A stretch of 64,000 bases of DNA from Arthrobacter sp. C2 (GTDB lineage: Bacteria > Actinomycetota > Actinomycetes > Actinomycetales > Micrococcaceae): positions 2,108,001-2,172,000 of the forward strand of contig CP042428.1 in the NCBI GenBank assembly GCA_024207135.1. Reading direction: 5' to 3'. The translations under genes and the position numbers were made by a program. Shown piece after piece: positions 15,429 to 34,336 of this stretch. Position 1 is the first letter of the stretch. Each line of letters begins with the position of its first letter. The notes beneath the pieces are model-generated. The model saw only the letters and a program-made list of their open reading frames with translations, did no database searches and was not told where the DNA came from.

Positions 15429-15454
15429 CAGCCCATTCACCGTAAATTCAAGCG

Positions 15455-19814: not shown

Positions 19815-20525
19815 ATGCAGCCCCAAATTCGAGTCCATCTTGCTGATGGCGATTACTTTCTTCGGCTTGGTCTGGAGAGCCTCTTGGCCTCAAGCCCGGA
19901 TGTCCAACTTGAACAAGTTACCGGCACCGGCAACGACGCCGTTGACGCGGCACTCGAGAAGAGGCCTGACTTGGTGCTCATGGAAACCAGTCTCAGCAAC
20001 ATATGCAGCATGGAAGCCACCCGGCGAATCGTGTCGGCGGCCCCGGAGACGAAGGTAGTGATGCTTTCGGCGACCCACGATATCGAGACCATGGCCAGGG
20101 CCCATTCGGCGGGTGCCTGTAGCTACCTGGCCAAGAATTCGATTTCAACCGACCTGGGTGCCGCACTTCGGATGATCCACTCGGGAAACATGATCTTCTC
20201 CAAGCCCGCGGATGCGGACCAGTTCCCGCCCCACTCCGCGAGCAAGTATGACTTGAAATCGCAACTGTTGCGTCAGGCCGGACCTCGCGATCGACGCATA
20301 CTGCAAGCACTGTCAGAAGGCCTTACCAACGTCCAAATCGCCTCATTGCTGCATGTCAGTGAAGGCACGGTCAAGGCGCAACTGGCAAAAATCATGGAAC
20401 CGCTGGGCGTCAGCAACCGTGTCCAGCTCGCGGTCTTGGCCGTTCAAGCCGGGCTCCTGGAAGAGTCGCGCACGACTGTGCCGCTGGGTGTCGGTCGCAT
20501 GCGCCATGCAACACCCCGTGCCTGA
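19815..20525 (+). CDS. LuxR-type response regulator with Asp-to-Glu receiver
   Basis: 236 residues. The receiver domain spans residues 5-120 and a LuxR/GerE helix-turn-helix about 155-215 (LSEGLTNVQIASLLHVSEGTVKAQLAKIM). The phospho-acceptor in DLVLMD is Glu57 (DLVLMETSLS), and the usual acidic pair near the N-terminus is Asp11-Gly12, while the conserved Lys (SYLAKNS) remains. It therefore probably works without phosphorylation. AAAGGAG lies upstream of ATG 19815. No sensor kinase is nearby. The gene diverges from the surface protein gene and may control it. Confidence 0.85.
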   Translation: MQPQIRVHLADGDYFLRLGLESLLASSPDVQLEQVTGTGNDAVDAALEKRPDLVLMETSLSNICSMEATRRIVSAAPETKVVMLSATHDIETMARAHSAGACSYLAKNSISTDLGAALRMIHSGNMIFSKPADADQFPPHSASKYDLKSQLLRQAGPRDRRILQALSEGLTNVQIASLLHVSEGTVKAQLAKIMEPLGVSNRVQLAVLAVQAGLLEESRTTVPLGVGRMRHATPRA

Positions 20526-20540: not shown

Positions 20541-21557
20541 CTAATACCCCAGGAACGGGTCATAGGCATTGATCAGCGCTTCGCCGTCCAAGTAGCGGCG
20601 CAGGTTTTTCGTGAAGAGTTCCACCAAACGTGAATTCTCCGCGTCCACGTTTGCGGCGGTATGAGGGGAGAGAATCAGGTTCGGGGCGTCCCACAAGGGG
20701 TGCCCGTCGGGTAGCGGCTCCGGATTTGCCACATCAAGGACGGCCCCGCCGAGGTTCCCGCCTACAAGTGCATCGATAAGTGCCTTCTGGTCAATGACCG
20801 GGCCGCGCGCCAGATTTACGAGAAATGCCCCCTGCTTCATTTCGGACAGTCGCCGCTCGTCCATGAGCCCCGCGGTTTCATCTGTCAGCGGGCAGGCAAG
20901 AACCACGATGTCGTACTCCCCCAGCCGACATTCCTGCAGGCTGACGGATCGTTCAAATGGACTGTCCAGCAGTCTGCCCGCTCGGGTGGTCCCGTCGCAG
21001 CTGACTCCCATGAAGCTCAAGGTCCTGGCAACTTCGCTCCCGATGCTGCCCGCCCCGATGATCAATGTGCGCAGTCCGTACAGGGTCTTCGATGCACCGT
21101 TTGTCCAACGGTGTGCCTTTCTCTGGGATTCGAGGCGTGGGATTTCGCGGATGAAATGCAGCAGCCCGGCCAGGGCGAATTCCGCCAGTGGCTTGGCGTG
21201 CACGCCGGCAGCGGTGGTGATGCGAACCTTGTTATCAATGTGCCCCATCGCCTCGGCCCGCGCGCCCACCCCGGCCTGCGAGGCCTGGATCCATTCAAGC
21301 CGTGGGCTGTGTTCCCGCCAATCGCGCGGCTGCCACCAGTCGAAATCAAACATGATGGTCGCATTGCCCAGATGCCACTGCCACTCCGCCAGTTGTCCCC
21401 CGGTGAGCTCACGGGGCTTGCCCCAATGGTCCGCCCCGAACTGTGGGACGGGCAGCAACTCGGGCCGGTAGATGACATCGACCTCGGGAGTGGCATCGAT
21501 CAGCCGGCCAACCAGCTCCTCCTGGAGATACGAGCAAATCAAAACCTGTGGGCGCAT
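20541..21557 (-). CDS. D-2-hydroxyacid dehydrogenase family protein
   Basis: 338 residues. NAD-binding IIGAGSIGSEVA around residue 165, then the catalytic triad in LVNLARGPVID (Arg), VLDVANPEPL (Glu) and LSPHTAAN (His). Such enzymes reduce 2-oxoacids to D-2-hydroxyacids with NAD(P)H. The gene is divergent from the PaaX-family regulator, which suggests co-regulation with the aromatic cluster. Substrate unknown; an aryl-2-oxoacid such as isatinate would be chemically reasonable but is speculation. Confidence 0.88.
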   Translation of the reverse strand: MRPQVLICSYLQEELVGRLIDATPEVDVIYRPELLPVPQFGADHWGKPRELTGGQLAEWQWHLGNATIMFDFDWWQPRDWREHSPRLEWIQASQAGVGARAEAMGHIDNKVRITTAAGVHAKPLAEFALAGLLHFIREIPRLESQRKAHRWTNGASKTLYGLRTLIIGAGSIGSEVARTLSFMGVSCDGTTRAGRLLDSPFERSVSLQECRLGEYDIVVLACPLTDETAGLMDERRLSEMKQGAFLVNLARGPVIDQKALIDALVGGNLGGAVLDVANPEPLPDGHPLWDAPNLILSPHTAANVDAENSRLVELFTKNLRRYLDGEALINAYDPFLGY

Positions 21558-21701
21558 GGAACTGAGGAACCTCTATCGTTGGGTGGCGGGACGAATGGAC
21601 GCGGCTCATCTGTAGTTTTTCCCAGCGTCACGAGAACGACACGACGAAAAAACCGGGCCCCTTCGGACAGGCTACCTTGAGTGGTTCGATAAGGTGAGCG
21701 C

Positions 21702-22583
21702 ATGACCACACTCGTAGGCGACAACAAGGGCCCCAGAGAGACCCCGGTCCCGCGGCACCACCAGCTCATCGTCTCGCTGTTCGGTCTGTATGCACGCCAG
21801 CACGGCGGCGCCCTGGCCGTGGCCACCATCATCGACTTGATGCGTGACATCGGGGTCGAGTCCACTGGAACCAGGTCCTCGATCTCACGCCTGAAAAAAC
21901 GCGGCGTCATCGACAGCGTGCAGGTCAACGGCCGCAACGGGTACGCATTGGCACCCTCGGTCATCGAAACTTTCATCGAGGGCGACGAACGCATCTTCCA
22001 CCCCCGGCGGGCCAAGATCGGCGAGCAGTGGCTCCTGGCAACCTTCACCGTTCCCGAGTCGCAGCGCAACATCCGGCACAAGATCCGTTCTTCGCTGGTG
22101 CGCATGGGCTTCGGTTCGGTGACCCCGGGGCTGTGGATCGCCCCGGGCCATCTGCGCGACGCGGTGTTGGCCTATTTCGACACCCGCGGACTGAACGAAT
22201 ACCTCGAGTTCTTCATGGCCGACCACGTTGGCGGCGCCGACCTGCACAAGAACATCGGTGCTTGGTGGGACCTGCCGGCGCTTGATGCACTGTACTCGGA
22301 CTTCCTCGAGCAAAACCGGGGGCTGCTGGAGTCATGGGACCAGCGCGACGGGTTCACCGCAGATCCAGACTCCGACGCCCGGGCCTTTGCCGACTACCTG
22401 GTCCTGGTCACCCAGTGGCGACGCCTGCCCTACCTCGACCCTGGGCTGCCCACCGAGTTCCTGCCCCGGAACTGGAACGCACTGGAGGCCGAGCACCTAT
22501 TCCAGCAGCTCCACACCTTGCTGGCCCCGCGCGCACAGCGCCATGCCGACCGCGCCATCGACGACCACGCCGTCACCGGATAG
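21702..22583 (+). CDS. PaaX-family transcriptional regulator
   Basis: 293 residues, the usual length. The N-terminal winged helix (TIIDLMRDIGVESTGTRSSISRLKKRGVID) is followed by the PaaX central and C-terminal domains (FTVPESQRNIRHKIRSSLVRMGFGSVTPGLWIAP). PaaX represses phenylacetate genes in E. coli and is released by phenylacetyl-CoA; relatives respond to other aryl-CoA esters. Here the neighbouring genes make an anthraniloyl-CoA-type ester, so that is the likely ligand. AAGGTGA precedes the ATG. It ends at a hairpin. Confidence 0.9.
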   Translation: MTTLVGDNKGPRETPVPRHHQLIVSLFGLYARQHGGALAVATIIDLMRDIGVESTGTRSSISRLKKRGVIDSVQVNGRNGYALAPSVIETFIEGDERIFHPRRAKIGEQWLLATFTVPESQRNIRHKIRSSLVRMGFGSVTPGLWIAPGHLRDAVLAYFDTRGLNEYLEFFMADHVGGADLHKNIGAWWDLPALDALYSDFLEQNRGLLESWDQRDGFTADPDSDARAFADYLVLVTQWRRLPYLDPGLPTEFLPRNWNALEAEHLFQQLHTLLAPRAQRHADRAIDDHAVTG

Positions 22584-22602
22584 CCGCTCCCCCACATCAA
22601 CA

Positions 22603-22663
22603 GGAAGCCGTGCCGTGCAACCGCCCTCCCTTGCGGGGTATGCGGTAGCACGACACGGCTTCC
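22603..22663. terminator. Bidirectional hairpin terminator
   Basis: GGAAGCCGTGCCGTGC pairs with GCACGACACGGCTTCC with one mismatch, between the convergent PaaX-family and RidA genes. Confidence 0.75.
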
Positions 22664-22696
22664 TTGGTTTCTTGCCCTTCTTGCCGGCTCGGATAA

Positions 22697-23119
22697 CTAG
22701 GCGCGGTCCTGGATCACCGCAATGCCCTGGATCTCGATGAGCGCCTCGGGCTGCCACAAGCGGCTGACCCCGATGCCGGCGAGCGCCGGGTACTTGCTGC
22801 CTGCCATTTCGCGCCAGAGCCGGCCGATCTCGCGGCCGTTGGCCAGGTAGTCGTCAACGTCTGTGAGGTAGATGGTCACCGACACCAGATCCTCGGGCTG
22901 TCCGCCGGCCTCGACGAGTGTTGCCAGGACGTTGGAGAACGCCTGCTTGAACTGGTCCACGATGTTGCCCGGAACGATCTTCATGTCCTTGTCCAGGGCG
23001 GTCTGCCCGCCCAGGTACACGGTCGTTCCCGCGAGCACGCCGTGGGCGAACCCGGAGGGCTTGCCCAGTGAATCGGGGTTGATGGTGAGGTTCTGGATGA
23101 GGGTGGTTTCGGTCATCAT
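22697..23119 (-). CDS. RidA family enamine/imine deaminase
   Basis: 140 residues, a RidA/YjgF/UK114 fold. The substrate Arg lies in GVSRLWQPEALIEIQ, equivalent to the Arg of RidA, and the N-terminal GQTALD loop is present. RidA speeds hydrolysis of reactive enamines and imines. The gene is divergent from the FAH-cupin-thioesterase-ligase-hydroxylase operon and probably shares its control region. Reduced aminobenzoyl-CoA intermediates are enamines, which gives a natural job here. GGAG lies just before ATGATG. Confidence 0.88.
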   Translation of the reverse strand: MMTETTLIQNLTINPDSLGKPSGFAHGVLAGTTVYLGGQTALDKDMKIVPGNIVDQFKQAFSNVLATLVEAGGQPEDLVSVTIYLTDVDDYLANGREIGRLWREMAGSKYPALAGIGVSRLWQPEALIEIQGIAVIQDRA

Positions 23120-23174
23120 GCTCTCCTGTGGGTTCTTGTGGCGGTTGCGGGTCTTCCGCTCTGGCGCCGGGCTA

Positions 23175-23188
23175 GTGATGCGTGTTAC
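23175..23188. promoter_or_regulatory. Candidate PaaX-family operator
   Basis: GTGATGCGTGTTAC lies between divergent ridA and the FAH operon. Its core TGATGCGTGTT resembles the known PaaX site TGATTCG-rich core. Its reverse complement (GTAACACGCATCAC) matches GTTACGCACGTCAC at 32904 in 10 of 14 places. Confidence 0.4.
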
Positions 23189-23258
23189 ATTGAGGATACG
23201 TGACGGCGGTCAAAAAGTCGACACAGTTGATTTGATGGATGGCAAAGGAGCCAACGGA

Positions 23259-24110
23259 ATGAAACTCGCAACGGTTCGACACGGTGGGCGCACCACCGCC
23301 GCCCTTGTGGTGGCAGGCGGCTACCAGCCGCTGCCGGCACGCAATCTCAGCGAGCTGCTGGCCCTTCCCGAGTGGAAGGCGATCCTCAAGGATGCCGCTT
23401 CCGGCCATTGCGGTCCGGATGTCCTGCCCGCAGCCGAGGTCGAAGTGTTGAACCCGGTGCCGAGCCCGGCGAAGGTCATTTGCTGCGGCCTGAACTACTC
23501 CGAGCACATCCTGGAAATGGGACGCGAGCTTCCCGCATTCCCCACGCTCTTCGCCAAGTTCGCCGACACCCTCACCGACCCCGAAGCACCGATCGTCGCC
23601 GACGAATCGGTGGACCTGGACTGGGAAGCCGAGCTGGCCGTGGTGGTCGGCTCCACACTGAAGGACGCCTCCGAGGACGAGGCGGCAGGCGCCATCGCCG
23701 GCTACACCGTGGCCAACGACATTTCCATGCGCGACTGGCAGCGCCGCACCCTGCAGTGGTTCCAGGGCAAGGCCTTTGACCGCACCACGCCGCTGGGACC
23801 CGTGCTGGTCACCGCCGATGCGCTGGATCCGGAGGCCGGCCTCGAGGTCATCTGCACACTCAATGGCGAAGAGGTCCAGCGCGGGAACACCAAAACGCTG
23901 GTCTTCTCCGCCGCCAAGCTCCTTTCCTACATCTCCACCTTCACCGTGTTGCGCCCTGGCGACGTCGTCCTCACCGGAACCCCCGGCGGGGTCGGCATGG
24001 GCATGGTCCCGCCGCGCTTCCTGAAGGACGGGGACGAGCTGGTCACCGAGATCCCCGGAATCGGAACCCTGTCCAACCGCATCAACCTGCGAATCAACGC
24101 TTCCCTCTAA
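23259..24110 (+). CDS. Fumarylacetoacetate hydrolase family protein
   Basis: 283 residues. FAH domain with VICCGLNYSEHILEM, the metal-ligand Glu pair in LDWEAELAVVVG and Asp in ANDISMRDWQ, then the TPGGVGMG block. Family members hydrolyse C-C bonds of ring-cleavage products (fumarylpyruvate, acylpyruvates) or decarboxylate them, using Mg/Mn. It is the first gene of a five-gene operon, so it points to a ring-cleaved intermediate. ATG 23259 has AAAGGAG upstream; the longer open frame running through the ridA region is not real. Confidence 0.88.
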   Translation: MKLATVRHGGRTTAALVVAGGYQPLPARNLSELLALPEWKAILKDAASGHCGPDVLPAAEVEVLNPVPSPAKVICCGLNYSEHILEMGRELPAFPTLFAKFADTLTDPEAPIVADESVDLDWEAELAVVVGSTLKDASEDEAAGAIAGYTVANDISMRDWQRRTLQWFQGKAFDRTTPLGPVLVTADALDPEAGLEVICTLNGEEVQRGNTKTLVFSAAKLLSYISTFTVLRPGDVVLTGTPGGVGMGMVPPRFLKDGDELVTEIPGIGTLSNRINLRINASL

Positions 24111-24154
24111 CCACCCCATCCACGCATCCAGCCACAGACCAAGGAGCCAAGCCC

Positions 24155-24640
24155 ATGAACAACCCGACCCCCACCATCTACCGCACCGAGGGTGAGAACA
24201 CCGTCTACGCCAACTCCGACGGAGTCGTCGTCCCCGTGGTCACCCGCAAGGGCGCCGAAGACACCAACACCGCGCAATCCGGCGACTGCATCCGCGTCTC
24301 CGGGGTCAGCATCCAGCACACCCCGGCCACCAAGCTCTGGTTCGGGCAGGTCTCCAACACCCCCGGATACCGGTCCCTCCCCCACCACCACGGCGAGGCC
24401 GAAACCGGCGGCTACGTGCTGCGCGGCCACGGACGGATCTACTTCGGCGAGAACTACGAGCAGTTCCTGGACATGACCGCCGGCGACTGGGTCTTTGTCC
24501 CGCCGTTCATGCCGCATGTCGAGGCCAACATGTCGATCACCGAGGACCTCGTCTGGCTCACCGCCCGCACCCCGGAAAACATCGTGGTGAACCTCGAAGA
24601 AGTCGCCGACGAAACCCTGGAAGGATACCGCCGGGCATGA
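24155..24640 (+). CDS. Single-domain cupin protein
   Basis: 161 residues, one cupin barrel. The two metal motifs are visible: LPHHHGEAETGGYVLRGHG (His, His, Glu) and VPPFMPHVEAN (His). That set could hold Fe or Mn. Small cupins include the ring-cleaving 3-hydroxyanthranilate dioxygenase as well as isomerases and sensors, so an oxygenase role on an aminophenol is possible but unproven. AAGGAG precedes the ATG and the next gene overlaps by four bases (ATGA). Confidence 0.85.
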   Translation: MNNPTPTIYRTEGENTVYANSDGVVVPVVTRKGAEDTNTAQSGDCIRVSGVSIQHTPATKLWFGQVSNTPGYRSLPHHHGEAETGGYVLRGHGRIYFGENYEQFLDMTAGDWVFVPPFMPHVEANMSITEDLVWLTARTPENIVVNLEEVADETLEGYRRA

Positions 24641-25506
24641 GCTCACAAATCTTCCTTGACGCCATCGATTTGACCGCCTGCGAGGCCGAGGTCTTTGACA
24701 CGGCTTTCACCGCCATCCCCCAATATGTTCCGTGGCCCAAGGCCTACGGCGGGGACATGGTGGCCCAGGGCGCCTCGGCCATGATGCGCTCGGTGGACGG
24801 GGACAGGGAACTGCACTCGATGCATTCATACTTCCTGCGCCCCGTGGACATGCACGTTCCGGTCCGCTACGAGGTCGAGCTGATGCGCGATGGCCGCGGC
24901 TACTCCACCCGCCAGGTCCGAGGCTTCCAAAACGGCAAGGCCGTCTACACCGCCCTGGGATCCTTCCACGTGCCGGAGTCCGGTCCCGAACAGTCCTCCG
25001 CGGCACCGGCCGAATTCCTGGACCTGGATCCCGAAACCCTGGCCAGCGCGGCCAGCGTCCTGGCCTCTGCCGAGGGCCCTGCCGCCGAGTACTGGTCCAC
25101 CGGCCGGTCTTTCGACATGCGCCACGTTCCCGGGGCCCTGTACCTCGAGGTCGACGGCAAGCCCTCGGCCCACCAGGCGGTCTGGGTCAAGGCGTTCACC
25201 GAACTTCCCGATGACCAGATCACCCAGCGCGCGGCCCTGGCCTATGTGTGCGACTACACCATCCTGGAACCGCTGTTGCGGACCCAGAACCTGTCCTGGA
25301 GCACCGAAGGACTCGTCACCGCGAGCCTTGACCACTCCATGTGGTTCCATCGCAGCGGTCGCGTGGATGATTGGGTGCTCTACGTCCAGGAAGCCATCTC
25401 CAGCCAAAACAACCGCGGCTTGGCATTGGGCCGCTTCTACACCCGCGGGGGCCAGCTGCTGGCCACCGTCGCCCAGGAGGGCATGATCCGCGGACCGCGC
25501 GGCTAA
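24637..25506 (+). CDS. TesB-type acyl-CoA thioesterase
   Basis: 289 residues, a double hot-dog fold of the TesB/acyl-CoA thioesterase II family. The N-terminal half has PWPKAYGGDMVAQGASAMMR and HSYFLRPVD; the C-terminal half has LAYVCDYTILEPLL and TASLDHSMWFHR, where the Asp, Gln and Thr/Ser catalytic residues sit. It releases a free acid from a CoA ester, which is odd beside a CoA ligase unless the ester is modified in between. It is translationally coupled to the cupin. Confidence 0.87.
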   Translation: MSSQIFLDAIDLTACEAEVFDTAFTAIPQYVPWPKAYGGDMVAQGASAMMRSVDGDRELHSMHSYFLRPVDMHVPVRYEVELMRDGRGYSTRQVRGFQNGKAVYTALGSFHVPESGPEQSSAAPAEFLDLDPETLASAASVLASAEGPAAEYWSTGRSFDMRHVPGALYLEVDGKPSAHQAVWVKAFTELPDDQITQRAALAYVCDYTILEPLLRTQNLSWSTEGLVTASLDHSMWFHRSGRVDDWVLYVQEAISSQNNRGLALGRFYTRGGQLLATVAQEGMIRGPRG

Positions 25507-25565
25507 GGCACCACAAGCACCATTGCAATCTTGAAAATCGACTCCTGGAAAGAGACGGCAAGTTC

Positions 25566-27197
25566 ATGGAATTATCGCTTTCGGCCCATCAAGACACCTT
25601 CACGCGCGACCACCTGCCGCCGCACGAGTTGTGGCCAACCCTGGAATTCACGCTGCCCGAGCTGCAGTACCCGGAACGACTCAACGCCGCGACGGTGCTG
25701 ATCGACGACGCCGTGGCAAAGTTCGGGGCCGGTTCCCCGGCCCTGCTGGCCCCCGACGGAACGGTGCAAAGCTACGGGGAGCTGCTCACCCGCTCCAACC
25801 AGGTCGCCCAGGTGCTGGTCGAGGACTTCGGGATCGTCCCCGGAAACCGGGTCATGCTCCGGGCCCCCAACAACGCCTGGCTCGTGGCCTGCTGGCTCGG
25901 GGTTCTGAAGGCCGGCGCCGTCGTGGTCACCACCATGCCGGCCCTGCGCGCCCCGGAAATCGCCAAGCTGGCCCAGCTGACCAAGCCCGCCCTGATGCTG
26001 TGCGACCACCGCTTCCTGGATGACGCCCGCGACGCTGCTGGTTCCTCCTACCCGGTCGTGGCAGTCGGATCCCAGGACCCGGCGGATCTGGTGGCGCTCG
26101 CTGGCGCCAGGTCCGGCGAGTTCACCAACGTCGACACCGCGGCCGACGACGTGGCCCTGCTCGGCCCAACCTCCGGGACCACCGGGGTCCCGAAGATCAC
26201 CATGCACTTCCACCGCGACATCCTGGCCAACGCGGACACCTTCGCCCGGCACATCCTGCGGCCGACCGCCTCCGATGTCTTCGCCGGCTCCCCTCCGCTG
26301 GCCTTCACCTTTGGCCTGGGCGGACTGGTCGTCTTCCCGCTGCGCTTTGGCGCCAGCACCCTGCTCACCGAGCGCACCACCCCGGTGGAGCTTGCGCAGT
26401 TCTCCCATGACGCCGGTGCCACGATCCTCTTCACGGCACCCACCGCCTACCGCGCCATCCTCAAGGAAGGCAAAGCGGACCTGCTTCGCCCGCTGCGCAT
26501 TGCCGTCTCGGCCGGCGAGCACCTCCCGGCGGCCACCTGGGAAGCCGTCAAGGACGCCACCGGCCTGGAATTGATCGACGGAATCGGCTCGACCGAGCTG
26601 CTGCACGTGTTCATCTCGGCCGCCGGGGCGGACATCCGCCCCGGCACCACCGGAACTGCGGTTCCCGGCTACCGCGCAACGATTCTTGACCTTGACGGCA
26701 ACGAGCTTGGGCCCGACGAGGTCGGCCGGCTCGCGGTCATCGGCCCCACGGGCTGCCGGTACCTCGATGACGAGCGCCAGCATGCCTACGTCTCCAATGG
26801 CTGGAACGTCACCGGTGACACCTTCGTGCGCGACGCCGACGGCTACTTCACCTACCAGGCACGCAGCGACAACATGATCATTTCCTCCGGCTACAACATC
26901 GGCGGGCCCGAGGTCGAGGAGGCCATCATCCAGCACCCCGACGTTCTGGAAACCGCCGTCGTCGCACGCCCCGACGAACACCGCGGCTCGGTGGTCTGTG
27001 CCTTCGTGGTGCTCGTGGACGGGGTCACCGCTTCGGCCGAGAAGGCCAAGGAGCTCCAGGACTTCGTCAAGACCGTCATCGCACCCTACAAGTACCCGCG
27101 CGAGGTCCGCTTCGTCGACGAACTGCCCCGGAACCCCAGTGGCAAGCTCCAGCACTTCAAGCTGCGCGAGGCATTGGCCCAATCCCCGGCCCACTAG
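25566..27197 (+). CDS. 2-aminobenzoate/benzoate-CoA ligase family protein
   Basis: 543 residues, an adenylate-forming CoA ligase. The P-loop-like motif is LLGPTSGTTGVPK around residue 205; GIGSTELLHVF, the adenylate-binding GYNIGGPEVEEAI region and the C-terminal catalytic Lys in NPSGKLQH are present. Overall it looks like benzoate-CoA or 2-aminobenzoate-CoA ligases (LRAPEIAKLAQLTKP). It would convert anthranilate, ATP and CoA to anthraniloyl-CoA. The next gene encodes the matching CoA-ester hydroxylase, which supports the substrate assignment. ATG 25566 gives the family N-terminus; the upstream open frame overlaps the thioesterase. Confidence 0.88.
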   Translation: MELSLSAHQDTFTRDHLPPHELWPTLEFTLPELQYPERLNAATVLIDDAVAKFGAGSPALLAPDGTVQSYGELLTRSNQVAQVLVEDFGIVPGNRVMLRAPNNAWLVACWLGVLKAGAVVVTTMPALRAPEIAKLAQLTKPALMLCDHRFLDDARDAAGSSYPVVAVGSQDPADLVALAGARSGEFTNVDTAADDVALLGPTSGTTGVPKITMHFHRDILANADTFARHILRPTASDVFAGSPPLAFTFGLGGLVVFPLRFGASTLLTERTTPVELAQFSHDAGATILFTAPTAYRAILKEGKADLLRPLRIAVSAGEHLPAATWEAVKDATGLELIDGIGSTELLHVFISAAGADIRPGTTGTAVPGYRATILDLDGNELGPDEVGRLAVIGPTGCRYLDDERQHAYVSNGWNVTGDTFVRDADGYFTYQARSDNMIISSGYNIGGPEVEEAIIQHPDVLETAVVARPDEHRGSVVCAFVVLVDGVTASAEKAKELQDFVKTVIAPYKYPREVRFVDELPRNPSGKLQHFKLREALAQSPAH

Positions 27198-27293
27198 CCA
27201 CACTTCCCATAGTTTTCCCCCCGTCGGCACCGCACGGAACCGGAATCAGTCCCGGTCGCCGCAGCCCTGCCGACCCCAGATAAGGACCCAGAC

Positions 27294-29690
27294 ATGAAAA
27301 TTGCAGTTGTTGGCGGCGGCCCCGGCGGCCTGTACTTCGCGGCCCTGATGAAGCAGCTCGACCCGGCCCACGTGGTCACCGTCTGGGAGCGCAATGCCGC
27401 CTCGGACACCTTTGGCTTCGGCGTGGTCTTCTCGGACGAGACCCTCGGCGGGATCGGCAACGCCGACACCGTCATCGCCGATTACATGTCCCGGCGCTTC
27501 GCCCGCTGGAGCGACATCGACATCCACTTCCGCGGGCAGATGCACACCGTGGGCGGCCAGGGCTTTGCCGCCATGAGCCGCAAGGAACTGCTGCAGCTGC
27601 TGCAGCGCCGCGCCATCGAACTCGGCGTCGACGTGCGCTTCTCCACCATCGCCCCGGACGTGGAAGAGCTGTCGGCAAACTACGACCTGGTGCTGGCCGC
27701 GGATGGATTGAATTCCGCGATCCGCACCCGCTTCGCCGAGTCCTTCAAGCCGTCCCTGGATGCGCGCACTTCCAAGTACATGTGGCTGGGCACCGACCAG
27801 GTCTTTGAGGCCTTCAAGTTCTTCGTCAAGGAGACCGACGCCGGCACCATGCAGATCCACGGCTACCCGTACTCGGACGAGGGATCGACCTTCATCGTGG
27901 AAATGCACGAGGACGTCTGGCGCGCCGCTGGCTTCGACGAGACGCAGGACGAGGTCTTCTCCCCCGGGGTGAGCGACGAGAAGGCCGTTGCCAAGGTGAA
28001 GGAGATCTTCGCCGAGGAACTGGCCGGATACAACGTACTGACCAACAACTCGAAGTGGATCAACTTCACCACCGTGCGCAACGAGAACTGGCGCCACGAG
28101 AACATCGTGCTGCTGGGCGATGCCGCGCACACCGCGCACTTCTCCATCGGCTCGGGCACCAAGCTGGCCATGGAGGACTCCCTGGCCCTGGCCGCCTGCC
28201 TGCACGAACACCCCTCCGTCGATGCGGCTTTGGAAGCCTACGAGACCGAGCGCCGCCCGGTGGTGGCCTCGACCCAGCGTGCCGCCCAGGCCTCGCTGGA
28301 ATGGTTCGAGAACATCGGGCAGTACAAGGACCAGGACCCGGTGCAGTTCTGCTTCAACCTGCTCACCCGCTCCCGCCGCATCACCTATGAAAACCTGAAG
28401 CTGCGCGACACCGAGTTCGCGGCCAAGGTCGACGCCGACTTCGCCCGACTGTCCGGCTCCGCGGAATCCGCCCCGGCCATGTTCCAGCCCTACAAGATCG
28501 GCGAGCTGGAATTGGTGAACCGCGTGGTGGTCTCCCCCATGGACATGTACTCCGCGGTCGACGGCGTTCCCGGGGACTTCCACCTGGTCCACCTGGGGTC
28601 CAAGGCCATGGGCGGGGCCGGACTGGTGATGACCGAGATGGTCTGCGTCTCTCAGATCGGCCGGATCACTCCCGGTTGCACCGGCCTGTACAACGACGAA
28701 CAGGCAATCGCCTGGAAGCGCATCACCGACTACGTTCATGGGAACTCGAAGGCCAAGATCGGCGCGCAGATCGGGCATTCAGGGCGCAAGGGCTCCACCA
28801 GGCTCATGTGGGAGGGCATCGACGAACCGCTGGAAACCGGCAACTGGGAGGTGCTGGCCGCCAGCGCGATCCCCTACGGCGAGGGCTGCCACGTGCCGGT
28901 GGAAATGGACCGCGCCGCGATGGATACGGTCCGCGACGAGTTTGTCGCCGCGGCCCGCCGCGCCGATGCGGCGGGCTTCGACCTGCTGGAACTGCACGCC
29001 GCGCACGGCTACCTGCTCTCCTCCTTCCTCTCCCCGCTGTCCAACCAGCGCAGCGACGAGTACGGCGGATCCCTGGAAAACCGCCTGCGCTACCCGCTGG
29101 AGGTGCTCGATGCGGTGCGCGCGGCGTGGCCGGCGCACAAGCCGATCGGCGTGCGCATCTCCGCCACCGACTGGACCGAGGGCGGGAACACCGAGGACGA
29201 TGCGTTGGCCATCGCCGCCTCGTTCATCGACCACGGGGTCAAGTCCATCGACGTGTCCTCCGGGCAGATCGTGCGCAACGAGTCCCCGGCGTTCGGGCGC
29301 AGCTACCAGACGCCGTTCGCGGACAAGATCCGCAACCAGGTCGCCGCAGCTGCCGGCGTCGCGGTCATCGCGGTGGGCGCGATCTCCTCCTACGACGACG
29401 TGAACTCGATCCTGTTGGCCGGACGTGCCGACCTGGTCGCACTGGGCCGCACGCACCTGTACAACCCCGCCTGGACGCTGCAGGCAGCAGCGGAGCAGGA
29501 ATACCTCGGGGACGGCGCCACTTGGCCGCTGCCGTTCAAGGCCGGGCGCCGCAAGCCGCCCAGCGCCCGCACCGACGCGGTCCGCCCGCGCCTGTCCCTG
29601 CTGAAGGAAGACGAGCTCGACGAGCAGGTCCACCTGCGCTGGACCCCGGCCAAGGCCACCGCAGCCAAGAACCTGGTGCCTAGCGCCTAG
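27294..29690 (+). CDS. 2-aminobenzoyl-CoA monooxygenase/reductase or salicylyl-CoA 5-hydroxylase
   Basis: 798 residues, two fused flavoenzymes. Residues 1 to about 390 are an FAD aromatic hydroxylase (VVGGGPGGLYFA, AADGLNSAIRTRF, LLGDAAHTAHFSIGSG). Residues about 400-770 are an FMN old-yellow-enzyme domain (HAAHGYLLSSFLSPLSNQR, DEYGGSLENR). This architecture is known from anthraniloyl-CoA monooxygenase/reductase of aerobic anthranilate degraders, which hydroxylates C5 and reduces the ring, and from proteins annotated as salicylyl-CoA 5-hydroxylase. The preceding ligase makes the substrate. It closes the operon before two terminators. Confidence 0.92.
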   Translation: MKIAVVGGGPGGLYFAALMKQLDPAHVVTVWERNAASDTFGFGVVFSDETLGGIGNADTVIADYMSRRFARWSDIDIHFRGQMHTVGGQGFAAMSRKELLQLLQRRAIELGVDVRFSTIAPDVEELSANYDLVLAADGLNSAIRTRFAESFKPSLDARTSKYMWLGTDQVFEAFKFFVKETDAGTMQIHGYPYSDEGSTFIVEMHEDVWRAAGFDETQDEVFSPGVSDEKAVAKVKEIFAEELAGYNVLTNNSKWINFTTVRNENWRHENIVLLGDAAHTAHFSIGSGTKLAMEDSLALAACLHEHPSVDAALEAYETERRPVVASTQRAAQASLEWFENIGQYKDQDPVQFCFNLLTRSRRITYENLKLRDTEFAAKVDADFARLSGSAESAPAMFQPYKIGELELVNRVVVSPMDMYSAVDGVPGDFHLVHLGSKAMGGAGLVMTEMVCVSQIGRITPGCTGLYNDEQAIAWKRITDYVHGNSKAKIGAQIGHSGRKGSTRLMWEGIDEPLETGNWEVLAASAIPYGEGCHVPVEMDRAAMDTVRDEFVAAARRADAAGFDLLELHAAHGYLLSSFLSPLSNQRSDEYGGSLENRLRYPLEVLDAVRAAWPAHKPIGVRISATDWTEGGNTEDDALAIAASFIDHGVKSIDVSSGQIVRNESPAFGRSYQTPFADKIRNQVAAAAGVAVIAVGAISSYDDVNSILLAGRADLVALGRTHLYNPAWTLQAAAEQEYLGDGATWPLPFKAGRRKPPSARTDAVRPRLSLLKEDELDEQVHLRWTPAKATAAKNLVPSA

Positions 29691-29704
29691 CATCGGAAGC
29701 AGGG

Positions 29705-29747
29705 AGGGAGTGGCTCGATTCGCGTGAAGCGGGCCGAGCCGCTCCCT
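29705..29747 (+). terminator. Hairpin terminator of the catabolic operon
   Basis: AGGGAGTGGCTCG pairs with CGAGCCGCTCCCT (one mismatch), 15 nt after the stop codon. Confidence 0.75.
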
Positions 29748-29799
29748 CTGTGCATTCCCGCCAAGATCCGGAGCGGCGCCACGCAGAAGACGCAGAAAT

Positions 29800-29844
29800 G
29801 CGCGGAGTGCCGGCGGGGAACGTTTCCCACCTGGCACTCCGCGC
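29800..29844 (-). terminator. Hairpin terminator of the ThDP operon
   Basis: GCGCGGAGTGCC and GGCACTCCGCGC form a perfect 12-bp stem just past the ThDP enzyme stop on the minus strand. Confidence 0.75.
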
Positions 29845-29865
29845 CGGTGATTCCGGGCGATTGCC

Positions 29866-31524
29866 TCAGTGCCCCTTGAAGGCCTCCGCGAGCCACCAGG
29901 CACCCGAGTCCGAGGCGATCTTCGCGTCGATGACCAGCGGCCTGCCCGGGCTTGAATCCAGCCAGGTCTGCACCGCGTCCAGGTCCGCGAGCGTGCGAAC
30001 GGTGATCCCGTCGGCGCCGAAGCCGCGGCCGATGGCGGCGAAGTCGGTGTCCGGGAATTGCACGATGCCCATGTCCGCTTCCGGGTTCCCGGTCCCAAAG
30101 TGGTGCACCTCGGCGCCGTAGGCCGCGTCGTTGTACACGATGCAGACCAGCGGCATGCCCAGCCGCACCGCGGTGTCCAACTCGGCGATGGCCATGTGGA
30201 AGCCGCCGTCGCCGGTGCCCAGCACCGGCATGCGTCCCGGTTGCGCCAGGCCCGCACCGATGGCCGTGTACAGGCCCAGCCCGATGGACTGGAACGCCTG
30301 GGTGAAGCAGAAGCCGAATTCGTCGGGCACCGAGAGGTACTGGCTGGGGTAGCCCATGAAGTTCCCGGAATCCACGCTGACGATGCGTTCGGCCGGCAGC
30401 AGCTCGTCGAGCCGCTTGGTCAGCGCGCGCGGGTCGATCAGCCGAGCATCCGAGAGGTCATCGAAGTCGACCTGGTTCCAGTCGATGGATTCCTTGATGC
30501 GCGCGGCGACCGCGGCGATGCGGTAGCCCTCGCGGGCTTCGGCGCTTCGGCCAAGAAGTTCTTCGAGCACGTCGGCGGCGCACTGCGCCGAGTCCCCCAC
30601 GATGCCCAGGTCGATGGGCCGGTTGGCACCCAGCGCCTGTTCCTCCACATCGACCTGGACGACCCTGGTGCCGGTGCCGATCAGGTGCCCGTGGCGCATG
30701 GTCCACATGTTCAGCGCGCAGCCGAAGCCGATGATGAGGTCCGCGTCGGTGATCAGCTCGGCCGCCAGCGGCGAGGAGAACCCGCCGGAGATGCCGAGGT
30801 TGAATTCGTCCTCGTTGAACAGGCCCTTGGCCACCGCGGAGGTCGCCACCAAGGCACCCGTGTGCCGGGCCAGGTCCAGGATCTCGTCCCTGGCGCCGCG
30901 CCCTCCGCGGCCGGCGACGAACACCGGGCGCGTGGCCTTGCCGATCAGCTCCGCGAGGGCCTCCACCGAGGCGCGCGAAGGCCGGATTGGTTCTGCCGGG
31001 GCCACGGTAGCTGTCGCTTGGGTCTGCTCGGCCGGGGCTTCTTGCGCCTGGACGTTCAGCGGCAGGTTCAACACGACGGTGCGACGGTCGTTCACCGCTC
31101 GCCGGTAGGCACGCACCGTGTCCGCCACCGCGCTGGCTGCGCTGTGGACCCGTTCCGGGATGGCGTAGACCGAGGCGGCGAAGCCGTCCTGGTCCATGGC
31201 GAAGTTCGAGTAGACCGCCGACGGCGCCGCCTCGGCGGCCAGCACGATCATCGGGGTGCGGGACTTGGCCGCCTCCCCGATCCCGGTTGCCGCGTTGGTT
31301 AGCCCGCAGCCCTGGTGCACCGACAGCAGGGCCACCTTCCCGCTGGTGCGCGCGTAGGCATCGGACATGGTGGCGGCCCCGCCCTCGTGCCGGGCGGCGG
31401 TGAAGGGAACCCCGTGTTCGACCAGGGTGTTGGTGATGGTGAAGTTGCCCGAGCCCACCACTCCGAAGCAGTGGCCGACGCCGAGTTCGGCCAGGGTCTT
31501 GCCGACGAGTTGTGCAACGTTCAT
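29866..31524 (-). CDS. ThDP enzyme, benzoylformate-decarboxylase-like
   Basis: 552 residues with the three ThDP-enzyme domains. The cofactor Glu is in ARHEGGAATMSDAYAR (about residue 47), and the GDG-N motif is GTGDGGFHMAIAELD with Asn in IVYNDAAYG. Ser in GSGNFT and His in LSVHQGCGLTN match the positions of the catalytic Ser and His70 of benzoylformate decarboxylase, whereas acetolactate synthase lacks the His. The ATG overlaps the stop of the cyclase gene (ATGA). If the cyclase makes isatinate (2-aminobenzoylformate), this enzyme would decarboxylate it. Confidence 0.87.
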   Translation of the reverse strand: MNVAQLVGKTLAELGVGHCFGVVGSGNFTITNTLVEHGVPFTAARHEGGAATMSDAYARTSGKVALLSVHQGCGLTNAATGIGEAAKSRTPMIVLAAEAAPSAVYSNFAMDQDGFAASVYAIPERVHSAASAVADTVRAYRRAVNDRRTVVLNLPLNVQAQEAPAEQTQATATVAPAEPIRPSRASVEALAELIGKATRPVFVAGRGGRGARDEILDLARHTGALVATSAVAKGLFNEDEFNLGISGGFSSPLAAELITDADLIIGFGCALNMWTMRHGHLIGTGTRVVQVDVEEQALGANRPIDLGIVGDSAQCAADVLEELLGRSAEAREGYRIAAVAARIKESIDWNQVDFDDLSDARLIDPRALTKRLDELLPAERIVSVDSGNFMGYPSQYLSVPDEFGFCFTQAFQSIGLGLYTAIGAGLAQPGRMPVLGTGDGGFHMAIAELDTAVRLGMPLVCIVYNDAAYGAEVHHFGTGNPEADMGIVQFPDTDFAAIGRGFGADGITVRTLADLDAVQTWLDSSPGRPLVIDAKIASDSGAWWLAEAFKGH

Positions 31525-32303
31525 GGTCGGTTCCTTCCGACCATGGCCAGCACGCGCGTCGGGGCGCCGGTGCCGCCGACGATCGGCAGCGGGGCCACCA
31601 CGACCATGGCCCCGTGGGTGGGCAGCTTGTCAAGGTTTTTCAGCGACGTGATGCCGTATTTGTCGGCGCCCAGCAGGAAGTGGTGCATCGGGAACGGCGG
31701 GTTCAGCGCCCCGGCGTTCCCGGCATCGATGCCCACGGTTTCCACACCGACGCCGGAGATGTCCAGCTCCTCGGCGATCCACTTGGCACACTCCGCGGTG
31801 AAGCCCGGGGTGTGGGAGCCGTGCTCATCCAGGTTCAGGAATGCCTGCTTGTCATGGTCAAAACGATCCCAGCCGGTGCGGAAGAGCAACCACGAATTGG
31901 CCGGGAAGGGCCCGTGTTCCTCCTGCCAGGCAACCAGGTGCTCGACGTCGATCAGGAAGTCGGGGTCCGCGGCTGATTGTTCGCTGAAATCCAGGACCAC
32001 CGCGGGGCCGACGAGGCGTTCGGGATCGAGCTGGGAGACATCCTTGCCCTCGCGCCCGGAGACCCAGTGGATCGGCGCGTCGATGTGGGTGCCGATGTGT
32101 TCGCCGGTGTGGATGTTGTGGTGCTTCCAGAACGGGCCGGGCTCGTTGTACCCGGAGACCTCCTCGATGCTGAAATCGATCAGGTTGGCGAACGGCTCGG
32201 GCAGCACCAACGTGGGCGTCTGCGCCGAAAGCGGCGCGGTCAGGTCGAAGAGCTCGACCGTGCCGGCCGCAAGAGAGGAAAGGAAGCTGTGGACGGGGCT
32301 CAT
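31521..32303 (-). CDS. Cyclase-family hydrolase, isatin hydrolase or kynurenine formamidase type
   Basis: 260 residues with the metal-binding HTGEHIGTHIDAPIHW motif (His-x3-His-x-Asp type), GIDAGN and a C-terminal catalytic region. The family opens cyclic amides or cleaves formamides with Mn or Zn: isatin hydrolase and KynB are the known aromatic members. No tryptophan dioxygenase or kynureninase gene is in the window, while a benzoylformate-decarboxylase-like gene overlaps it downstream, so isatin hydrolase fits better. Its start lies 82 nt after the thioesterase gene on the same strand. Confidence 0.85.
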   Translation of the reverse strand: MSPVHSFLSSLAAGTVELFDLTAPLSAQTPTLVLPEPFANLIDFSIEEVSGYNEPGPFWKHHNIHTGEHIGTHIDAPIHWVSGREGKDVSQLDPERLVGPAVVLDFSEQSAADPDFLIDVEHLVAWQEEHGPFPANSWLLFRTGWDRFDHDKQAFLNLDEHGSHTPGFTAECAKWIAEELDISGVGVETVGIDAGNAGALNPPFPMHHFLLGADKYGITSLKNLDKLPTHGAMVVVAPLPIVGGTGAPTRVLAMVGRNRP

Positions 32304-32385
32304 AATGGGTCTCCAATGTTGTTGGTGGCCAGATTGCAGATTCCGGTCAGGCTAGCAGCGAACCGTGGTCGCTTGCATGCCCTTC

Positions 32386-32898
32386 TCAGATGGTGGATCG
32401 TTGTTTCAGCGCGGCAAGCACCGTCTCCGGCCAGGGTGACGATTTTTCGGCGCCTTCCGGCACGCAAACCGTTACAAAGCGGCCTTCGGCCGCGAGCACG
32501 GAATCGCGTCCTTCGTGTGGATGTCCCCAGACCTTGAAGGCAAAGGACATGGAGGAGGATCCGACATGTTCAATAACCACTGCGGTGGTCACCCGTTGCC
32601 CGAAGTAGAGTTTTGCGCGGTAGTCGATTTCATGTCGTACCCGAGGTGCATTTCCGAAGTAGGAAACGACGCCGAGCTCCCGAAAGAGCCTGGCTTCGGC
32701 GGCCTCGACAAACCGCATGACCACGGAGTTGTGTTGGTGTCCTGCCGCATCGGTGTCGATCCATTCGATGTGGCGCTCCAACACGCTGCCGGCTACTCCC
32801 GACGCGAGAAATTCCCCTGCCGCATCCGCAACGGCAGCGGCTTTCACTCCACCATTGTCACTCGATTTTCCGATCATCGTAAAGTTTTCTCCATCCAT
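32386..32898 (-). CDS. 4HBT-type acyl-CoA thioesterase
   Basis: 170 residues, single hot-dog fold. The catalytic Asp lies in IEWIDTDAAGHQHNS, the motif of 4-hydroxybenzoyl-CoA thioesterases. It hydrolyses aryl- or acyl-CoA esters. It is the first gene of the minus-strand operon with the cyclase and ThDP enzyme. The start may be ATG 32898, or ATG 32877 which has GGAGA about 11 nt upstream. It is the second thioesterase in this cluster. Confidence 0.85.
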   Translation of the reverse strand: MDGENFTMIGKSSDNGGVKAAAVADAAGEFLASGVAGSVLERHIEWIDTDAAGHQHNSVVMRFVEAAEARLFRELGVVSYFGNAPRVRHEIDYRAKLYFGQRVTTAVVIEHVGSSSMSFAFKVWGHPHEGRDSVLAAEGRFVTVCVPEGAEKSSPWPETVLAALKQRSTI

Positions 32899-32901
32899 CC
32901 A

Positions 32902-32931
32902 TTGTTACGCACGTCACTTTAACGACATAAT
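32902..32931 (+). promoter_or_regulatory. Candidate promoter of the AAHS transporter
   Basis: TTGTTA and CATAAT with an 18-nt spacer, reading towards the MFS gene. It overlaps the candidate operator at 32904. Confidence 0.4.
32904..32917. promoter_or_regulatory. Second candidate PaaX-family operator
   Basis: GTTACGCACGTCAC lies in the only divergent control region of the transporter and the thioesterase-cyclase-ThDP operon. It resembles the reverse of the site at 23175 and overlaps the candidate promoter, as a repressor site would. Confidence 0.35.
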
Positions 32932-32992
32932 ACAAGCATTCGCTGTTCCACCTCCATCAAGACTTGACCCCTTCATACGAGGAGCCCTAAGC

Positions 32993-34336
32993 ATGGCGGC
33001 AACACAAACCAGCACCGACTGGAAAATCCCCAAACGCACCACCTCGGTGGTCCTCTTCGCCTGTTGGCTGGCGATCCTGGCGGAGGGCTACGACGTTGGG
33101 GTCCTTGGCGCCGTCCTGCCGGCGTTGGCCGAGTACCAGGAATGGTCGCTGACCCCGTTGCAGCTTGGCGGACTGGGCGCCTATGCGCTGGTCGGCATGC
33201 TCTTCGGGGCCCTCTTCATCGGAACCCTCAGCGACATCATCGGCCGGCGCAGGATGCTCCTGCTATCGATGGCAATCTTCACCATCACCCAGGCCGGGGC
33301 TGCCCTGGCCCCGACCCCTGAGATCTTTGGCTTGTTCCGCTTCCTGGGCGGCCTGGGCATGGGCGGGATCATCCCGGTCGCCGCGGCACTGACGATCGAA
33401 TACTCGGCACCCAGGAAGCGGTCGCTGAACTACGGAATCATGTACTCGGGTTATTCGCTGGGCATCGTCGCCGCGGCCATGGTGGCCATGGCATTGCTGC
33501 CAACGCTAGGTTGGCGTTGGGTGATTGCCGTGGGCACGCTTCCGATCCTGATCCTTCCGGTGGTCGCCTGGCTCGTTCCGGAATCACTCGAATACCTGGT
33601 GGCCAAGGGCAGGATCGCCGAGGCCAAGGCCCTGGCCAAGAAGCTGAACGTGCGCGACTACCGGCCGGTGGCCCCGGCGAACCCGGGCCGGAGGATCCCT
33701 TGGCGCGAGGTCATGGCCGCCATGTTCTCGGGCAAGTACCTGCGCTCCACGGTGTTCTTCTGGATCTCGTTGTTCTGCGGGATGGTGCTGGTCTATGGCC
33801 TGAACACGTGGCTGCCGCAGATCATGCGCAAGGCGGGCTACGATCTGGGCTCTTCCCTGGCCTTCCTGCTCGTGTTCTCGCTGGCCTCCGCCATTGGCGG
33901 CCTGGTTCTGGGCTTCCTCGCAGACAAATACGGGCAGAAGACCATCCTGGTGCTCTTCTACCTGCTAGGTGCCGGCGGCATCCTGTTGCTGATGTTCCCC
34001 AACACCATGTTCGTGAACCTGTGCTTCGTGGCATTCGCCGGCATCGGGTCCATCTCGACCTCACTGGTCCTGACCGGATACATCGCCGACTACTACCCCG
34101 CGGCACAGCGCGGCACCGCCACAGGCTGGGCGCTGTCCTTTGCCCGCATCGGCGCCATCTCCGGGCCGATCATCGGTGGGTGGATTGCCTCGACCGGGCT
34201 GAGCTTTGAATTCAACTTTGTTTTCTTTGCCATTGTCGGCGTGGTGGCAGCCATCGCGGTGTCATTGATCCCGAAGCGGGTCGTCGAGCCACCCGCCGAA
34301 ACGCCAGCCGTCGAAAGCGAGGCGGTGCTGGACTAG
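32993..34336 (+). CDS. AAHS-type aromatic acid/H+ symporter (MFS)
   Basis: 447 residues, 12 predicted helices. Helix 1 has CWLAILAEGYDVGVLGAVLP with the Asp typical of aromatic acid symporters such as PcaK and BenK, and the loop motif GTLSDIIGRRRM follows. GAGGAG lies 8 nt before ATG 32993. Placement inside the cluster suggests it imports the pathway's aromatic acid (for instance anthranilate or isatinate) with protons. Confidence 0.9.
   Translation: MAATQTSTDWKIPKRTTSVVLFACWLAILAEGYDVGVLGAVLPALAEYQEWSLTPLQLGGLGAYALVGMLFGALFIGTLSDIIGRRRMLLLSMAIFTITQAGAALAPTPEIFGLFRFLGGLGMGGIIPVAAALTIEYSAPRKRSLNYGIMYSGYSLGIVAAAMVAMALLPTLGWRWVIAVGTLPILILPVVAWLVPESLEYLVAKGRIAEAKALAKKLNVRDYRPVAPANPGRRIPWREVMAAMFSGKYLRSTVFFWISLFCGMVLVYGLNTWLPQIMRKAGYDLGSSLAFLLVFSLASAIGGLVLGFLADKYGQKTILVLFYLLGAGGILLLMFPNTMFVNLCFVAFAGIGSISTSLVLTGYIADYYPAAQRGTATGWALSFARIGAISGPIIGGWIASTGLSFEFNFVFFAIVGVVAAIAVSLIPKRVVEPPAETPAVESEAVLD

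Follow-up and report, generated by a model that had tools for sequence, protein, structure and literature searches.

A candidate gene island of Arthrobacter sp. C2 for the lower half of an actinobacterial indole route, from isatin-type compounds to anthraniloyl-CoA

One of the closest known relatives of the gene island considered here lies on pAL1, the linear quinaldine plasmid of Arthrobacter sp. Rue61a. As reported in PMC3534580, this strain degrades anthranilate only via coenzyme A (CoA) thioesters; ARUE_113p00220 conferred anthranilate-CoA ligase activity on E. coli extracts, and CoA esters fitting hydroxyanthraniloyl-CoA and cyclohexanedione-carboxyl-CoA appeared on anthranilate. Further upstream, Variovorax paradoxus CL14 was described as converting indole-3-acetic acid (IAA) to isatin, isatinic acid, and anthranilate (PMC9613470), and the early steps of this iad route were revised by a later isotope study (PMC12633357). 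Isatin arises in the breakdown of indole, an odorant and signal molecule. Its place on the indole pathway was regarded as an open question in the relevant part of a 2018 review (PMC6221969), because the iif cluster has no gene making or using isatin. Here, we analyzed a 64,000-nucleotide stretch of the Arthrobacter sp. C2 contig CP042428.1 (hereafter the window), which is part of a single-contig genome of 4.56 Mb. It holds an island in which a cyclase-family hydrolase and a thiamine diphosphate (ThDP)-dependent enzyme adjoin a cluster of the pAL1 type. We consider it rather likely that this island provides the lower half of a route by which actinobacteria degrade indole, leading from isatin or isatinate through anthranilate to anthraniloyl-CoA.

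A preliminary description of the window had claimed a gene set running from a PaaX-family regulator to an AAHS importer, and profile searches with Pfam and NCBIfam recovered every gene that it named. The genes of the island are the following (identities to pAL1 proteins in brackets).

21702 to 22583, plus strand: PaaX-family regulator (Pfam PaaX, PaaX_M, and PaaX_C; 52% and 50% to the two pAL1 PaaX-type regulators by BLASTP)
22697 to 23119, minus strand: RidA-family protein (Pfam 6.9e-22; 78% to pAL1 RidA)
about 23259 to 24110, plus strand, start estimated: FAH-family protein (Pfam 3e-67; 61% to pAL1 FAH)
24155 to 24640, plus strand: small cupin protein (Pfam Cupin_2 6.2e-8; 82% to the pAL1 cupin)
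24637 to 25506, plus strand: TesB-type acyl-CoA thioesterase (Pfam 5.4e-35; 71% to pAL1 TesB)
25566 to 27197, plus strand: anthranilate (2-aminobenzoate)-CoA ligase (AMP-ligase Pfam 1.1e-61; 73% over 537 amino acids to the pAL1 ligase)
27294 to 29690, plus strand: hydroxylase/OYE fusion of the 2-aminobenzoyl-CoA monooxygenase/reductase type (Pfam FAD_binding_3 and OYE; NF006101; 77% to pAL1)
29866 to 31524, minus strand: ThDP-dependent enzyme, candidate isatinate (2-aminophenylglyoxylate) decarboxylase (Pfam TPP_enzyme N, M, and C)
31521 to 32303, minus strand: cyclase-family hydrolase, isatin-hydrolase-like (PF04199, 5.5e-41)
32386 to 32898, minus strand, start maybe 32877: 4HBT-type thioesterase (Pfam 4HBT_2 3.6e-11; 48% over 118 amino acids to the pAL1 hotdog protein)
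32993 to 34336, plus strand: AAHS-like MFS transporter, candidate aromatic-acid importer (Pfam MFS 6.9e-62)

The 4HBT, cyclase, and ThDP genes form a minus-strand operon, in which the end of the cyclase gene and the start of the ThDP gene share the bases ATGA. Three gene starts were revised, most likely to near 23259 for FAH, 25566 for the ligase, and near 32993 for the transporter; those of FAH and the ligase were shortened because the longer open reading frames (ORFs) reach into other genes. The ligase and the fusion also face long ORFs on the minus strand (25572 to 30257); these were not taken as genes, as the three that were tested gave zero Pfam matches.

The window and pAL1 share the gene order RidA-FAH-cupin-TesB-ligase-fusion, with identities of 48 to 82% when PaaX and the hotdog protein are included. 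The annotated order on the plasmid is PaaX, RidA, FAH, cupin, TesB, ligase, fusion, PaaX, and hotdog protein; its first PaaX gene lies on the strand opposite to that of the window gene, and a small hypothetical gene stands between it and RidA. Unlike the window, pAL1 has quinaldine genes upstream and a second PaaX gene, while neither a cyclase nor a ThDP gene occurs within the 38-kb stretch examined. It is very likely that the window carries an anthraniloyl-CoA tail. This tail had been called non-canonical, a label that we abandon, because the arrangement is the one already established on pAL1, in the same order with PaaX inverted, and is not new. The proposal of a 2-aminobenzoate-CoA-type ligase fared better, since the enzyme is 73% identical to the pAL1 ligase, a homologue whose activity was reported in PMC3534580; its score against TIGR02262 was 329.6 bits, below the cut-off of 375. 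Both the ligase activity and the CoA-thioester route were demonstrated by others for the homologue, and by analogy they would apply here. RidA may hydrolyze the enamine made by the hydroxylase/OYE fusion, and FAH may serve as the C–C hydrolase of the reduced ring; we infer that the CoA ester fitting cyclohexanedione-carboxyl-CoA in Rue61a is consistent with loss of the enamine nitrogen through RidA ahead of the FAH step.

The fusion also passes the model NF006101, named bifunctional salicylyl-CoA 5-hydroxylase/oxidoreductase (1219 bits, cut-off 1078), a name that would suit a tail degrading salicylate via salicylyl-CoA and gentisate. We rejected this reading, to which we give only a very slight chance, as Rue61a was reported to show no growth on either salicylate or gentisate and the homologous ligase acts on anthranilate (PMC3534580); moreover, the pAL1 version sits on an anthranilate-producing plasmid. 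Two plasmid records of Arthrobacter sp. ERGS1:01 (NZ_CP012477.1 and NZ_CP012478.1) gave an identical best match to the fusion (78.8%, 1255 bits), possibly reflecting a shared or duplicated segment.

Synteny in related genomes, a comparison that the preliminary description had proposed, ties the cyclase–ThDP pair to indole-monooxygenase genes. The related loci are the best 80 named loci from a scan with the ThDP protein (eight of them shorter than 21 kb), and their neighborhoods were judged within about 10 kb of the ThDP gene. The closest named locus, from Paeniglutamicibacter psychrophenolicus, encodes a ThDP protein 95% identical to that of the window. A cyclase gene is present at 73 of the 80 loci, always at most 400 bases from the ThDP gene and in 65 on the same strand. 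IndA1/IndA2B-type genes were found at 23 loci, all of which have the cyclase; the fusion or the ligase occurs at 26, and both IndA and anthraniloyl-CoA genes at 9. The pair closes most of the IndA operons, as 20 of the 23 IndA loci show the one-strand order short-chain dehydrogenase (SDR)-IndA1-IndA2B-flavin adenine dinucleotide (FAD) oxidase-cyclase-ThDP. Two of the remaining three are rearranged (our loci L050 and L055) and one lies on a short contig (L056). In the rearranged island of Nesterenkonia natronophila (L055), which has IndA1, the FAD oxidase, and the CoA cluster, an alpha/beta-hydrolase gene (9222 to 9962 of that locus) directly precedes the ThDP gene.

IndA1 of the relatives matched PDB entry 7z4x, which we take to be VpIndA1, at E = 1.5e-180 and the styrene monooxygenase 3ihm at 1e-42, while the FAD oxidase of the operons is CrtO/phytoene-desaturase-like. 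Enzymes of the StyA1/StyA2B type have been classed as indole monooxygenases (PMC6165268 and PMC13101518), although for a Variovorax pair of this type PMC6017014 describes sulfoxidase activity together with indigo formation. StyA2B- and StyA1-like genes are also reported for the Rue61a chromosome (PMC3534580).

A near-complete version of the island was found in Paeniglutamicibacter antarcticus (L038), with the order MFS, 4HBT, AraC, SDR, IndA1, IndA2B, FAD oxidase, cyclase, and ThDP, continued by one ORF without Pfam match, the fusion, ligase, TesB, cupin, FAH, RidA, PaaX, and a 2-hydroxyacid dehydrogenase. The window has the same order minus the AraC-to-FAD oxidase block, which in P. antarcticus lies between 4HBT and the cyclase, and minus the ORF after the ThDP gene. 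Another genus of the family (genome G218) carries the IndA block in the same place. In a tree of ThDP proteins, the window enzyme pairs with that of P. psychrophenolicus (98%) within a four-member set that includes the IndA-bearing L038 and the IndA-free L041 (97%). IndA-linked and IndA-free loci are interspersed in this tree, and its well-supported branches force at least six label changes. Loss of the IndA block in the line of the window is thus suggested as the likely course.

Co-occurrence was scored in 297 genomes of the order at thresholds of 1e-90 for the ThDP protein, 1e-180 for the fusion, and 1e-60 for IndA2B. The ThDP protein was found in 28 genomes, the fusion in 21, and IndA2B in 5. 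ThDP protein and fusion coincided in 12 genomes as compared to 2.0 expected (hypergeometric 7e-9, rising to 4e-8 when the C2 genome itself is left out; kinship ignored), and all five IndA2B genomes have both.

A palindrome common to the relatives, TGACGNNCGTCA, suggests how upper and lower routes are switched together. It was first spotted upstream of the cyclase in L038 and L042 to L044, among the 4HBT–cyclase junctions of six loci and the window. We counted it in 91 loci, defining upstream regions as -220 to +20 of the starts of island-type genes. The count drops L133, L136, L142, and L143 as duplicates and L138 and L147 for some shared 60-mers; it leaves out the window, L118, L119, and stretches of the C2 genome fetched later, and it includes the discovery loci. 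Exact copies numbered 31 in the upstream regions (116,681 bases) as compared to 12 elsewhere (1.80 Mb), a 40-fold density, and one-mismatch copies 95 as compared to 112, a 13-fold density, whereas six scrambled palindromes used as a control gave 0 to 2.5-fold; these fold values are not probabilities, since the loci are related and the discovery loci are included. Sites with at most one mismatch, which divergent genes share, lie upstream of SDR at 18 of 24 loci, RidA at 24 of 31, FAH at 21 of 30, MFS at 14 of 20, 4HBT at 13 of 23, AraC at 11 of 25, the cyclase at 15 of 80, and PaaX at 1 of 26. None was found upstream of the FAD oxidase (0 of 27) or IndA2B (0 of 23), which are genes inside the operon. 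On pAL1 (L117), exact copies are found at 1072 and 1478, between divergent quinaldine operons, and at 21663 in the PaaX/hotdog gap, with one-mismatch copies at 13953 (RidA/FAH gap), 9656, and 11100. MeqR2, the PaaX-type repressor of Rue61a, is reported to recognize TGACGNNCGTcA and to have anthraniloyl-CoA as its effector, and the operator identity and effector assumed for the present island derive from this. Two candidate operators of the window stand at corresponding places.

23201 to 23212, no strand assigned: candidate operator TGACGGCGGTCA, differing from TGACGNNCGTCA at a single position, in the region of the divergent RidA and FAH promoters
32905 to 32916, no strand assigned: candidate operator TTACGCACGTCA (reverse TGACGTGCGTAA), a one-mismatch copy in the divergent 4HBT/MFS promoter region

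The number of sites in the window is uninformative, and it is the placing of these two that is telling. No site with at most one mismatch was found between the dehydrogenase gene that neighbors the island and PaaX. Elsewhere in the genome, there are three exact palindromes, two of them inside ORFs (of 2913 and 166 amino acids) and the third beside a solute-binding/AsnC/aminotransferase locus.

The cyclase is encoded by the sole PF04199 gene of the genome. Its best PDB matches are isatin hydrolases, at E values from 8e-73 to 2e-65, and its metal motif EHIGTHIDAPIHW (HIGTHIDAPIH) fits the HxG[T/A]HxDxPxH pattern that PMC6117287 defines for them; the same paper gives Km values of 10 to 16 uM for isatin hydrolases. 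It quite probably acts, judging by this resemblance, on isatin or a close oxindole. Could it instead be a kynurenine formamidase, so that the island ends a tryptophan catabolism running from tryptophan dioxygenase through the cyclase, kynureninase, and anthranilate to anthraniloyl-CoA? The genome does have tryptophan-dioxygenase-family and kynureninase genes and no second PF04199 gene, and kynU lies near a pAL1-type cluster in Arthrobacter sp. ERGS1:01. However, kynurenine formamidases in the PDB matched only at about 2e-6, the score against the arylformamidase model TIGR03035 was 34.5 bits (cut-off 223), and the KynB I(L/I)E motif with its metal-site Glu, as given in PMC6117287, was not found in the cyclase, which has GITS there; the search did not extend to other formamidase families. 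This reading would also leave the pairing with the ThDP enzyme and IndA unexplained, and we regard it as decidedly improbable.

The ThDP enzyme was compared with benzoylformate decarboxylase (BFDC) at Ser26, Glu47, and His70, which are functionally important in BFDC, and at His281. The first three correspond to Ser25, Glu47, and His70 of the window enzyme; across 91 aligned rows, among them L008, which is a copy of the window itself, and further near-duplicates, the Ser26 and His70 equivalents are kept in 90 and Glu47 in all 91. Against the BFDC model NF005485, the enzyme scored 138.9 bits (cut-off 493). In a structure search, the model predicted from 26 sequences (mean pLDDT 87.1, with low values at residues 277 to 279, 473 to 477, and 546 to 552) gave the generic ThDP-enzyme fold. 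We see an even chance that the enzyme acts on isatinate. A second ThDP paralogue of the genome (about 52%; G000:C1:2832799-2834448, or L129:8800-10449) keeps the Ser26/His70 pattern; it sits among NMT1-type binding proteins, an ABC transporter, and an AMP-ligase, with no PF04199 gene there.

A number of observations weigh against an isatin-to-anthraniloyl-CoA island. For the cyclase, both isatin-hydrolase signatures are missing: the pocket motif is WKH and not WXW/FXW, and GITS stands where the activity signature is GLQC/GLAS. Neither QC nor AS ends this signature in any of the 73 cyclases of the related loci, whose last two positions are TS (61), TL (6), or TQ (6). The equivalent of BFDC His281 is Thr275 in the ThDP enzyme and Thr in all 91 rows, and BFDC was not among the 50 structural matches listed for the model, although this absence in itself excludes nothing. 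The window contains no exact copy of the palindrome, and the site found directly before the cyclase in relatives is missing from it. Its five one-mismatch sites compare with 3.0 expected, a number reached in 15 of 100 shuffles and thus no excess; besides the two candidate operators, they comprise sites at 26768, which falls within the ligase gene, at 38903, and at 43763. At half of the related loci (40 of 80), IndA and anthraniloyl-CoA genes are both missing from the neighborhood, no fusion passed the threshold in 16 of the 28 genomes with the ThDP protein, and five loci (L053, L061, L066, L080, and L083) have the ThDP gene and the CoA cluster with no cyclase in reach. Three ORFs separate cyclase and ThDP genes in G218, the island itself is without an aldehyde dehydrogenase gene, and no IndA2B-type monooxygenase was found in the whole 4.56-Mb genome, in which only flavin-reductase domains matched (28 to 41%).

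The altered pocket raises the possibility that the substrate of the cyclase is not isatin but dioxindole or an oxindole substituted at position 3, with the ThDP enzyme acting on the 2-oxo acid formed after oxidation. A parallel exists in the iad route, where the relevant part of PMC12633357 places IadI, annotated as a kynurenine formamidase, downstream of C8H7NO2, with C8H7NO3 and C7H7NO before anthranilate; in our own reading, these formulas fit dioxindole, isatinate, and 2-aminobenzaldehyde. However, the motif change need not mean a new substrate, because the IndA loci carry both W.H (5 of 23) and W.W (18 of 23), as do the related loci at large (44 and 29 of 73), and the FAD oxidase of the IndA operon could make isatin first. 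We consider a different oxindole unlikely.

The loci without partners likewise bear on whether cyclase and ThDP enzyme are an independent detoxification module that adjoins the anthraniloyl-CoA cluster by chance. Those 40 loci and 16 genomes do imply that the pair also serves elsewhere, but a chance neighborhood, for which we see little likelihood, would have to accommodate the 12 genomes sharing ThDP protein and fusion as well as the palindrome common to the relatives. At the five cyclase-free loci, isatinate or another 2-oxo acid is perhaps imported directly. On plasmid pLRE138 of Rhodococcus erythropolis R138 (L118), the pair is followed by an ABC importer, a thiolase, an acyl-CoA ligase, and an aldehyde dehydrogenase, and thiolase and ligase genes related to these lie near the pair in L045 and L070; this setting is possibly an auxin-type version. 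With the R138 aldehyde dehydrogenase as the only query, matches of 25 to 27% were found near the pair in three further loci.

Taken together, the earlier proposal of isatin-type ring opening leading to anthraniloyl-CoA, perhaps from indole, stands in part: the IndA operons ending in cyclase–ThDP, the P. antarcticus version, and the palindrome in relatives favor it, whereas the two absent isatin-hydrolase signatures do not. The statement that the window has no Rieske or indole oxygenase proved accurate, as the genome's 3 Ring_hydroxyl_A and 13 Rieske matches all fall outside it and IndA2B is absent genome-wide. Isatin could come from indole oxidation by neighbors, and another oxygenase for indole or anthranilate may be among the three Ring_hydroxyl_A genes. 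The anthraniloyl-CoA module may be fed mainly by anthranilate as such, because the genome has, outside the island, a tryptophan-dioxygenase-family gene and a kynureninase gene, the latter over its cut-off. The former (L148:8368-10071, G000:C1:3875367-3877070) is a tryptophan-2,3-dioxygenase-family gene and is followed 9 bases on by another PaaX-family gene, 38% identical to the window PaaX.

In the route that we propose, isatin, isatinate, or anthranilate would enter through the AAHS-like carrier and/or by diffusion. The cyclase would open the isatin lactam to isatinate (2-aminophenylglyoxylate), which the ThDP enzyme might either decarboxylate to 2-aminobenzaldehyde, leaving the oxidation to an aldehyde dehydrogenase encoded outside the island, or turn into anthranilate by oxidative decarboxylation. 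The ligase would form anthraniloyl-CoA, whose ring the hydroxylase/OYE fusion would hydroxylate and reduce; RidA would then remove the enamine nitrogen, and cleavage and product release would fall to FAH and the thioesterases. Both modules would be coupled by a PaaX-type repressor that acts at TGACGNNCGTCA-like sites and for which anthraniloyl-CoA is the probable inducer, and the relatives would add the upper half with SDR, IndA1, IndA2B, and the FAD oxidase. The substrates of the cyclase, the ThDP enzyme, RidA, FAH, and the carrier, like the effector, are here assigned by inference, while gene inventory, synteny, co-occurrence, the palindrome of the relatives, and the absence of IndA2B are read directly from the DNA. 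A bolder version, which we advance tentatively and with less than even confidence, is a second actinobacterial indole route with isatin as a true intermediate: IndA1/IndA2B, SDR, and the carotenoid-desaturase-like FAD oxidase would make isatin, a divergent isatin hydrolase and a new ThDP class decarboxylating isatinate would lead on to anthraniloyl-CoA under one PaaX-type operator, and the window would be a trimmed form living on the isatin of others.

At the margins of the island, two assignments had to be changed. The transporter is AAHS-like, with TIGR00895 as its top NCBIfam model, but its score stays below the curated cut-off (304.5 as compared to 418.6 bits), so the AAHS importer of the preliminary description is kept only in that looser sense. 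The neighboring gene to the left had been counted as part of the island:

20541 to 21557, minus strand: D-2-hydroxyacid dehydrogenase (C-domain Pfam 7.8e-46)

Because it is present at only 2 of the 80 related loci, it is probably not an island member. Further left, a large minus-strand ORF (15455 to 19528) gave only weak MG2/MucBP matches, and two of the three 2-kb bins at 14001 to 20000 have a G+C content of 0.556 to 0.564, while most window bins exceed 0.64.

There is precedent for isatin hydrolases, for indole monooxygenases, and for the CoA-thioester route, each by itself. In the open-licence library that was searched, we found no paper that joins the three with a ThDP enzyme; the part of PMC6165268 on E2-type clusters describes genes probably for anthranilate and "indolepyruvate" degradation. 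Operons joining an indole monooxygenase, an isatin-hydrolase-like gene, and a ThDP gene are a direct genetic handle on the isatin question and name a candidate for the step from isatinate to anthranilate, and the Arthrobacter and Paeniglutamicibacter strains make the question testable. Compared with the isatin hydrolases LaIHA, LaIHB, and RsIHA, its closest PDB sequences, the window cyclase has the same metal motif and differs by WKH and GITS. The iif/ind indole route of Acinetobacter and Cupriavidus ends in anthranilate, as proposed here, but as described in PMC6221969 and PMC6165268 it uses a cofactor-independent oxygenase on 3-hydroxyindolin-2-one and has no isatin gene, whereas the window has a hydrolase and a ThDP enzyme. 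In the iad auxin route of Variovorax and Bradyrhizobium, isatin, isatinic acid, and anthranilate were detected and the gene annotated as kynurenine formamidase acts late; the initial steps of this route are the attack of a Rieske-type oxygenase on IAA and the CoA-linked removal of the side chain, and the sections describing it mention no ThDP gene. Last, the IndA1/IndA2B operons of Paenarthrobacter, Arthrobacter, and their relatives mostly end in the cyclase–ThDP pair that they have in common with the window, which is itself without AraC, SDR, IndA1, IndA2B, and the FAD oxidase.

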